Part shown: positions 3,198 to 5,647 of the stretch, piece after piece | How the letters are laid out: every line of letters begins with the position of its first letter | Position numbering within the stretch: position 1 is the stretch's first letter | From: Bacteroidia bacterium 43-41 | GTDB taxonomy: Bacteria > Bacteroidota > Bacteroidia > Bacteroidales > Dysgonomonadaceae | DNA: 64,000 bases | Assembly: GCA_001898165.1 (NCBI GenBank) | Contig: MKTD01000066.1 | Location: 35,670-99,669 of the forward strand | Direction: 5' to 3' | Notes under the pieces: generated by a model | Database searches by the model: none | What the model saw: only the letters and a program-made list of their open reading frames with translations | Told to the model about the DNA's origin: nothing | Translations under genes and position numbers: made by a program

Positions 3198-3662
3198 ATG
3201 AAAAGAATTGCATTTACTACCTACGCTAAAATTATTGCCTGGATTTTGGGAATTTTGGGATTCGCCTCCTCTTGCGAGATCCCTGGTCTGGTCGAATACG
3301 GAACCCCTTCGGCCGATTATGTGGTAAAGGGAAAAGTTACCGACAAAGCCACCCAACAACCCCTGAAAAACATGGCAGTCATCCACAAATCGGACACATC
3401 ACCCTACGGGAACGATACCGTAAGAACAAACGCCGAAGGGAGTTACGAACTGAAATTCACCTCCTTTCCTTACCGCTCCGAAAATATGATCGTCTATGCA
3501 TCGGATTTAGACGGTGAAGAAAACGGTTTGTACAAGTCGGATACCCTGCGGATAAAAGCATCGGAGCTGAGACAGACAGCGAAAAAACGGGGTTGGTACG
3601 CGGGCACGTTTGAAAAAACCGGGGCTGATTTCACGCTAAACAAATCAAGCGAAAAAGAATGA
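3198..3662 (+). CDS. Small lipoprotein of the rSAM/lipoprotein system type
   Basis: 154 aa; signal + Cys ('GFASSCEIPGLVEYGTPSADYVVKGKVTD'); CarboxypepD_reg-like beta domain; stop overlaps start of the radical SAM gene. Confidence 0.75.
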   Translation: MKRIAFTTYAKIIAWILGILGFASSCEIPGLVEYGTPSADYVVKGKVTDKATQQPLKNMAVIHKSDTSPYGNDTVRTNAEGSYELKFTSFPYRSENMIVYASDLDGEENGLYKSDTLRIKASELRQTAKKRGWYAGTFEKTGADFTLNKSSEKE

Positions 3663-4783
3663 ATCTTCAGAAAAACATACTGCTTTCGCTCTATCAAGAG
3701 CATAAAAAGGCACAGGCTAAACTACACAAGCTCAACTATCTGTTTTGGGAGTGCACGCTACGCTGCAACTTCAACTGCGTACACTGCGGGAGCGACTGCA
3801 CCAGGGAGAACATTGTCCCCGATATGCCGAAGGAAGACTTCCTGCAAATCCTGTCCGATATCCGTCCTCACGTAGATCCGCACAAAACAATGATCGTGCT
3901 CACCGGCGGTGAGCCGCTTGTGCGTAAAGACCTGGAGGAGGTGGGGAGAGAGATTTACAAAATGGAATATCCGTGGGGATTTGTCACCAACGGCTGGGGG
4001 CTATCGCAAGAGCGGCTCGATGCGCTTCTCCATGCCGGACTGCGCTCCGTAACGGTTAGTTTGGACGGATATACCGAAGCGTCGCACGAGTGGTTTCGCG
4101 GCAAAAAAGGATCGTGGCTCAGGGCGTTGAACGCCATCTCACGGGTAGCAGGCACACCGGGCCTGGTGTATGACGTGGTTACGTGCGTCAATAAAAAGAA
4201 TATCGATGACCTCCGCAACTTAAAGTCGATGCTTATCTCATTGGAAGTAAAGCATTGGCGGTTGTTTACCGTTTTTCCGAAAGGAAGGGCCAAAGACAAT
4301 CCGCTGTTGAAATTATCCACTCATGAATTTGTACAAATGATGGAGTTCATCCGGGAGACCCGGGAAGAAGGAAAAATCAATGTCTCCTACGGGTGTGAAG
4401 GTTATCTGGCCGACTACGAAATGGAAGTGCGTGACGCTCCCTTTTTTTGTCAGGCAGGCGTTCATATTGCATCGGTGTTGGCAAACGGAGATATCAGCGC
4501 GTGTCCCAGCCTTCGGGGCGATTATATTCAAGGCAACATTTATAAAGACGATTTCTGGGCCGTATGGAACACCCGTTATCAGGTGATGCGCGACCGCCGA
4601 TGGACAAAAACAGGGAAATGCGCCACGTGTAAATCCTATAAATTCTGTCAGGGAAACGGATTACACCTCCGGGACGAAAAAACGGGCGAGTTGCTGCATT
4701 GCCACTTGGAGATGATGGGACAACTACAACCTCAAATAAAACGAAGGAGCGTCCTCTCAAAAGCCGTGAGTTTTTTCACCTGA
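3659..4783 (+). CDS. Radical SAM/SPASM protein (rSAM/lipoprotein system)
   Basis: 'CTLRCNFNCVHCGSDC' contains CxxxCxxC; 'TGGEPLVRKD'; C-terminal SPASM-like cysteines 'CPSL...CATCKSYKFCQGNGLHLRD...LHCH'. Confidence 0.9.
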   Translation: MNLQKNILLSLYQEHKKAQAKLHKLNYLFWECTLRCNFNCVHCGSDCTRENIVPDMPKEDFLQILSDIRPHVDPHKTMIVLTGGEPLVRKDLEEVGREIYKMEYPWGFVTNGWGLSQERLDALLHAGLRSVTVSLDGYTEASHEWFRGKKGSWLRALNAISRVAGTPGLVYDVVTCVNKKNIDDLRNLKSMLISLEVKHWRLFTVFPKGRAKDNPLLKLSTHEFVQMMEFIRETREEGKINVSYGCEGYLADYEMEVRDAPFFCQAGVHIASVLANGDISACPSLRGDYIQGNIYKDDFWAVWNTRYQVMRDRRWTKTGKCATCKSYKFCQGNGLHLRDEKTGELLHCHLEMMGQLQPQIKRRSVLSKAVSFFT

Positions 4784-4919: not shown

Positions 4920-4971
4920 CAATACTGATTGGAATTGAACCCAAATGTCTTTTCTTTGTTATAAAGTTTAA

Positions 4972-5094
4972 GGTTCAAGGTTTAAAGTTCAAGGTTTTTC
5001 ACTTTTAGCTCTTTTGTCTTGGTTCTTGGCTCTTGATTCTTGGCTCTTGATTCTTTTGTCTTGGTTCTTGGCTCTTGATTCTTGGCTCTAAAAG
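4972..5094. repeat. Heptamer-periodic intergenic array 1
   Basis: AAGGTTC-AAGGTTT-AAAGTTC-AAGGTTT then CTTGGTT-CTTGGCT-CTTGATT-CTTGGCT-CTTGATT-CTTTTGT-CTTGGTT-CTTGGCT-CTTGATT-CTTGGCT-CTAAAAG. Confidence 0.85.
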
Positions 5095-5104
5095 TCTTAC
5101 AACA

Positions 5105-5647
5105 ATGAAAAAAGCATTATTAATAGTGGATGTTCAGAACGACTTTTGTCCGGGTGGCGCACTGGGGGTGAAGGAGGGGGACCAGGTTGTCCCTGTCATT
5201 AACAGCATTATCGACAGGTTCGACTTTGTCATTTCATCACAAGACTGGCATCCCGAAGGGTCTGTTCATTTCGAGAAGTGGCCTCCACACTGCATCGCCC
5301 ATACACGAGGCGCCGATTTTCATCCCGGTCTGAAAACGGAAAAGATCGGCCTTAAGTTACGAAAAGGGACTGCCGACAAAGACGATGGTTATTCCGCTTT
5401 CGAAGCCACCAACGTTTCCTTTTCCGATTTTCTCCGCGACAACAAAATTACAGACCTGTATATCTGCGGTCTGGCAACCGATTATTGCGTAAAAGCATCC
5501 GCTCTCGACGCGATCAATCAAGGTTTCCATACATTTGTGATTACCGATGCCATAAAACCCGTAAACGTGAATCCGGGCGACGACAAGAAGGCATTAGACG
5601 AAATGTATCAGAACGGATGCGTGCTGTTGGAGTCGGACGACCTCTGA
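5105..5647 (+). CDS. pncA: Nicotinamidase (isochorismatase family)
   Basis: 'MKKALLIVDVQNDFCPGGALGV', 'SSQDWHPEGSVHF', 'GLATDYCVKASALDA'; ORF start moved from 5075 to the internal ATG. Confidence 0.92.
   Translation: MKKALLIVDVQNDFCPGGALGVKEGDQVVPVINSIIDRFDFVISSQDWHPEGSVHFEKWPPHCIAHTRGADFHPGLKTEKIGLKLRKGTADKDDGYSAFEATNVSFSDFLRDNKITDLYICGLATDYCVKASALDAINQGFHTFVITDAIKPVNVNPGDDKKALDEMYQNGCVLLESDDL

Follow-up and report, generated by a model that had tools for sequence, protein, structure and literature searches.

The window analysed here is a 64,000-nucleotide stretch of contig MKTD01000066.1 from Bacteroidia bacterium 43-41. Near its beginning are two genes on the forward strand, both with ATG starts. 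The first (3198-3662, +) encodes a 154-residue lipoprotein, the proposed protein substrate, and the second (3659-4783, +) encodes a 374-residue radical SAM/SPASM enzyme without a signal peptide. The stop codon of the former and the start codon of the latter share an ATGA (3659-3662, +), from which translational coupling is inferred, and short overlaps of this kind recur in relatives. Both proteins pass the curated cut-offs of existing NCBIfam models: the lipoprotein matches TIGR04134 at 110.6 bits (6.7e-32; cut-off 39.8) and the enzyme matches TIGR04133 at 540.4 bits (1.5e-162; cut-off 425), with further Pfam matches of the enzyme to Radical_SAM (5.8e-20) and SPASM (2.9e-8). The genome contains one copy of the TIGR04134 lipoprotein family. 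A first-pass annotation, made from sequence alone, had placed the two reading frames at these positions with their ATGA overlap, proposed both family names, and described a radical SAM CxxxCxxC motif with a C-terminal cysteine cluster as well as a lipoprotein cysteine after GFASS followed by EYGTPSADY. All of these claims held; the annotation quoted EYGTPSADY, but missed this tag as the key feature pointing to a specific chemistry.

Diverging from the pair is a gene encoding a TonB-dependent receptor (560-2947, -) with a Pro/Ala/Gly-rich insert, MMPPRPGGGGAPAAPAANVQTP, which scores under every named TonB receptor cut-off. On the other side, between the enzyme gene and a nicotinamidase gene (5108-5647), are short tandem repeats of GTTTAAAGTTCAAG and TCTTGATTCTTGGC units (4966-5089), with a 42-bp period and a 100% match over 1.9 copies.

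The lipoprotein begins with a signal peptide extending to the lipobox FASS-Cys26 (3198-3275, +). The bacterial lipoprotein lipobox criterion is met by the sequence and by a helix at residues 3-19 of the AF2 model, and lipidation is predicted at Cys26 (codon 3273-3275, in GFASSC), the only cysteine in the protein. The EYGTPSADY tag follows at residues 33-41 (3294-3320, +), identified by the invariance of Tyr34 and Gly35, by its top rank among patterns beside the radical SAM gene and by the motif table. Within it, Tyr34-Gly35-Thr36-Pro37 (3297-3308, +) is the proposed modification site and corresponds to an X-Tyr-Gly splice site in which X is Glu33. The remainder, approximately residues 38-150 (3309-3650, +), is a transthyretin/CnaB-like β-sandwich, an assignment based on the AF2 model, weak Foldseek matches and a sub-threshold Pfam match to CarboxypepD_reg. 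The model (pLDDT 87) consists of a signal helix, a linker and a β-sandwich from residue 38, and places Tyr34-Pro37 on the lower-confidence linker, outside the fold. The Foldseek hits, to the transthyretin-like domain of carboxypeptidase D and to CnaB domains, are weak and only generic for a β-sandwich; there is no catalytic match for this domain. A phylum-wide search with TIGR04134 recovers mostly sub-threshold β-sandwich domains of large proteins.

In the enzyme, the radical SAM cluster motif CNFNCVHC (residues 36-43; 3764-3787, +) is followed by GS, fitting the signature WE.T..CN..C.HCGS. The SPASM region (4448-4702, +) reads C264...C282...C321-C324-C330-GNGLH...C348. The CNFNCVHC motif and Cys246, Cys264, Cys282, Cys321, Cys324, Cys330 and Cys348 are invariant in 45 relatives. 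The protein thus has both features expected of the SPASM class of radical SAM enzymes, CX3CX2C and the SPASM cysteines, except that the fourth cysteine of CX2CX5CX3C is replaced, and one auxiliary cluster must therefore be bound differently. Across the TIGR04133 family (enzyme residues 330-336), this cysteine is mostly replaced by GNG together with an invariant His336, and it may be that the GNGxH sequence supplies an unusual cluster ligand. The AF2 model of the enzyme (pLDDT 91.5) is nearest in Foldseek to the peptide-modifying SPASM enzymes SuiB, SkfB and anSME.

The two families occur together well beyond this genome. A scan of 295 Bacteroidales genomes, with the lipoprotein called at the TIGR04134 cut-off and the enzyme at 1e-50 or better, detects the lipoprotein in 41 and the enzyme in 72; both are present in 40 of the 41 lipoprotein genomes (Fisher p about 2e-28). 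The single exception, G524, could reflect assembly loss. A first set of loci was assembled from the enzyme loci of 78 relatives and the window, and in most of these a small secreted protein is encoded directly upstream of the enzyme on the same strand. Among 65 scored loci, the partner gene overlaps the enzyme start in 25 and is separated from it by 0-30 nt in 24. Given this recurring overlapping or near-abutting arrangement and the genomic co-occurrence, the pairing is not due to chance.

In an alignment of 41 TIGR04134-like proteins, where mean column identity is 26%, Tyr34, Gly35 and one turn glycine are invariant, and Pro37 and Asp103 are nearly so; the lipobox cysteine is not among the invariant positions. 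A further alignment of 31 lipoproteins has invariant Tyr34, Gly35 and Pro37. The setting of the tag varies. Short forms read ACYGTPQD, with the tyrosine immediately following the lipobox cysteine, others have AQYGAP after an apparent signal-peptidase-I site and no lipobox, and in some proteins the tag is present twice. In enzyme-bearing genomes, proteins of TIGR04134 size encoded away from the enzyme also have Tyr-Gly near the mature N terminus in all cases except L170; among these off-locus lipoproteins, the long ones of L179 are divergent. Homologous lipoproteins with no enzyme nearby (L178, L184, L185 and L187) lack Tyr-Gly at the corresponding place; a genome-wide search for the enzyme covered only the genome of L178, in which it was not found.

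The tag is not confined to TIGR04134-like proteins. Where no such partner is present, the enzyme may instead be accompanied by coiled-coil lipoproteins containing REGACVYGSPEV once or twice, or by lipoproteins of 50-140 residues in which KYGVP occurs one to three times near the C terminus. Those non-TIGR04134 partners that were searched against Pfam and NCBIfam gave no match above cut-off. In an exhaustive scan of AB.C and A.BC residue patterns over the mature parts of secreted open reading frames near the enzyme, YG.P ranks first, at 63 of 73 loci, with the next best pattern at 35. With TIGR04134 homologues excluded it still leads, at 20 of 44 loci against 12 for the runner-up. Spurious reading frames and homologous proteins are included in these counts, which are rankings and not independent events. 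Close to the enzyme, the tag is about 31-fold denser than in the remainder of the same loci. Across 186 distinct TIGR04133-associated tags the pattern is YGxPxxx[FY]: position 8 is aromatic in 46%, compared with 19% and 8% for its two neighbours, and residue 3 is Gly in 9 tags and Pro in 19. Tags are repeated two to six times within single partner proteins, a feature that can be likened to multi-site splicing. Several partners per enzyme are common; upstream of one enzyme there can be arrays of distinct small secreted proteins that all contain Tyr-Gly (five in L115, four in L129 and three in L125). Three loci of the first set, L117, L121 and L142, have no tagged partner. A truncated frame in L117 hints at a broken partner gene, and the L121 assembly contains Ns.

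After the tag was recognized, 80 further loci were fetched from public genomes via the enzyme profile. A nearby same-strand reading frame with YG(x1-3)P occurs at 64 of the 69 TIGR04133-like loci in this second set, and at 49 of the 69 if a strict signal peptide filter and YG.P alone are applied. Loci of this set without a tagged partner include L244, L253, L261 and L272. A few of the 64 (L246, L263) are probably stray reading frames, and the second set overlaps the first in taxonomy, making it a replication on new loci and not a fully independent sample. No tagged plausible secreted partner was found at ten outgroup loci (nine deltaproteobacterial AhbD-like and one archaeal NirJ2/AhbD-like), where a looser scan gives a few stray tagged frames; two of the nine AhbD-like loci were scored, and both are AhbD. 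Family members are present in Bacteroidota, Neomarinimicrobiota, Fibrobacter, Spirochaetes and Firmicutes/Coriobacteria. The Firmicutes enzymes, at 272-299 bits, are under the TIGR04133 cut-off and adjoin small lipoproteins with YGPP one to three times. In three Firmicutes loci (L301, L302 and L303), small non-secreted neighbours, two of them zinc-ribbon-like, carry IYGPxP or LYGPP. Since these proteins are tagged without being secreted, the partner need not be exported.

The identity of the pair, its co-occurrence and the presence of the tag as the common element of unrelated partners are thus shown. That the YGxP tag is the reaction site of the TIGR04133 enzyme is an inference, and a likely one. 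The nature of the reaction is less certain. A known enzyme excises tyramine from the protein backbone at X-Tyr-Gly, and PIRPLYGLPI and AVAAGYGVVFP are working tags for it; no RiPP leader is needed, and the tag functions inside large proteins (PMC10533398). Because the lipoprotein tag matches this splice site, the balance tips slightly towards TIGR04133 being a stand-alone splicease-like enzyme that excises tyramine at the tag, although this is inferred and no chemistry has been measured. Against it are the lack of PlpY, the replaced SPASM cysteine, weak support for a sister relationship to PlpX, the fact that PlpX is scored about as well by AhbD as by TIGR04133, and the few loci without a tagged partner.

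In the tyramine excision model, a cytosolic SPASM enzyme would recognize and react at Tyr-Gly-x-Pro-x-x-x-[Phe/Tyr] in proteins destined for secretion, most of them lipid-anchored. Modification of the prolipoprotein would accompany its coupled synthesis or follow shortly afterwards; export and lipidation would come next, an order that is itself inferred. An electrophilic ketoamide would thereby be placed on the flexible linker between the lipid anchor and the β-sandwich, where it could serve in reversible covalent inhibition of cell-surface proteases. This use is inferred only by analogy with spliceotides, which are reported to be potent protease inhibitors (PMC10373908, PMC11117315). In the short forms, the residue preceding the tyrosine is the lipobox cysteine, which could complicate lipidation after splicing.

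Three further points raised by the first-pass annotation bear on this interpretation. It took the lipoprotein to be either a substrate or a co-acting partner; because partner folds vary while one short tag stays, the substrate role is strengthened, but the modification itself has not been demonstrated. It named absent co-occurrence across genomes as grounds for refutation, a condition that was checked and is not fulfilled. Finally, it judged thioether chemistry unlikely on the basis of the single cysteine, and this also held: any cysteine after the tag occurs in only 7 members of the 31-member alignment, and some partners have no lipobox. A sactipeptide-type maturase is accordingly rejected for want of a conserved acceptor cysteine.

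The alternative that survives best is a different chemistry at the tyrosine or glycine of YGxP, such as a C-C or ether crosslink from the tyrosine to residue 3 or to the position-8 aromatic, tyrosine oxidation or epimerization. This remains possible. In its favour, the fold relatives of the enzyme crosslink or oxidize (SuiB, SkfB, anSME, ChlB), position 8 has an aromatic peak, and TIGR04133 lacks both PlpY and one SPASM cysteine. However, Gly or Pro at residue 3 argues against a Cβ crosslink there, the position-8 aromatic is missing from half of the tags, and the two unvarying family residues coincide exactly with the splice-site pair. A cyclophane of the triceptide type, joining the tyrosine to residue 3, was considered first and was set aside because some tags have Gly or Pro as residue 3.

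It is unlikely that the lipoprotein is instead a co-acting partner (a chaperone, anchor or redox partner) of an enzyme whose real substrate lies elsewhere. Tight pairing and translational coupling would fit a stable complex equally well, but partner folds differ (β-sandwich, coiled-coil, unstructured small lipoproteins and, in some Firmicutes, zinc-ribbon-like non-secreted proteins) and only the tag is constant. Moreover, several partners often accompany one enzyme, and the enzyme lacks an export signal, unlike its exported partner. Least tenable is the view that YGxP has nothing to do with the enzyme and instead directs lipoprotein sorting or export to the surface: the TIGR04134-type tag lies 0-15 residues after the lipid-bearing cysteine, in the region of Bacteroidota lipoprotein export signals, but the tags of other partners are internal, C-terminal, repeated or located after a signal-peptidase-I-like site, and the four homologous lipoproteins without a nearby enzyme lack the tag.

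TIGR04133/TIGR04134 is a known but uncharacterized family pair; what is new is the YGxP tag as a family hallmark across unrelated partners. No papers naming either family were found in the literature searched, although an earlier description is not excluded, and the 939 splicease systems predicted by Scott et al. 2022 (Chem 8:2659; cited in PMC10533398) may already include TIGR04133. The near-constant tag defines precisely which residue and which mass to search for, making the chemistry of the pair directly testable. If tyramine excision does occur, backbone editing to β-amino acids would extend to exported lipoproteins of gut and environmental bacteria and would not be confined to peptide natural products, and these enzymes would be a new source of tools for introducing ketoamides into proteins without a leader and possibly without PlpY.

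Among known systems, the closest is the TIGR04133/TIGR04134 rSAM/lipoprotein pair itself, defined in NCBIfam as hypothetical equivalogs. The window pair has the same gene order and spacing and no essential difference, and the partner set of TIGR04133 enzymes is broader than TIGR04134, including unrelated lipoproteins with the same tag. AhbD heme b synthase (TIGR04545) is comparable to TIGR04133 in its HMM score with a PlpX query (154 versus 152 bits), but it has HCRA in place of HCGS, and no tagged secreted partner occurs at the nine AhbD-like loci. The WE.T..CN..C.HCGS signature is common to TIGR04133, PlpX and GDL enzymes and is absent from the AhbD, MftC, PqqE and TIGR04053 examples examined. 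In a phylogenetic tree, TIGR04133 forms one clade (100%) beside PlpX, the GDL maturases and intermediates; the sister grouping has 83% SH-aLRT support and a long branch, and a sister relationship to PlpX is thus only weakly supported.

The GDL-motif system (a TIGR03913 maturase with DUF1843 peptides) has a related maturase, and most partner peptides examined have Tyr-Gly near the N terminus. However, the GDL partners occur two or three together as short peptides without lipidation, and no Pro follows their Tyr-Gly. In the DUF1843 peptides of L209, L201 and L202, Tyr-Gly is sometimes replaced by Tyr-Ala or Tyr-Met. The Tyr-Gly in these peptides suggests that TIGR03913 maturases may share the TIGR04133 chemistry. 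A Bacteroidales locus, L206 (G239:C3, 5449-6096), encodes six KYGYP repeats (five KYGYPC and a final KYGYPG) adjoining a gene whose radical SAM product falls between TIGR04133, TIGR04103 and TIGR03913; the repeat protein resembles a multi-core precursor.

The most informative comparison is with the PlpXY spliceases (TIGR04103, nif11-class rSAM maturase 3). PlpX, a radical SAM/SPASM enzyme, belongs to IPR026482 and works together with the RRE protein PlpY (PMC11002830). As a positive control, a Nostoc enzyme scores 853 bits, over the TIGR04103 cut-off, and its Nif11 precursor, the only one used, ends in LYGLPPELF, which fits YGxPxxx[FY] with Phe at position 8. The PlpX criterion of an X-Tyr-Gly...Pro site in a neighbouring precursor is met both at TIGR04133 loci and in this control. 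The systems also share repeated sites, the HCGS signature and full-length HMM similarity, with PlpX matching the TIGR04133 profile at 2e-44 along almost all of its length. In contrast, the window enzyme reaches only 113.3 bits against the TIGR04103 cut-off of 725, there is no Nif11 or NHLP leader, phmmer with the Nostoc PlpY candidate detects no PlpY-like reading frame near any TIGR04133 locus, and the fourth SPASM cysteine of PlpX is replaced, most often by GNGxH. Given the missing PlpY, the unmet cut-off and the replaced cysteine, TIGR04133 is not filed as a member of PlpX, and the claim is limited to its working like one. Its proposed substrates likewise differ from spliceotides, being exported lipoproteins that would retain most of their chain.
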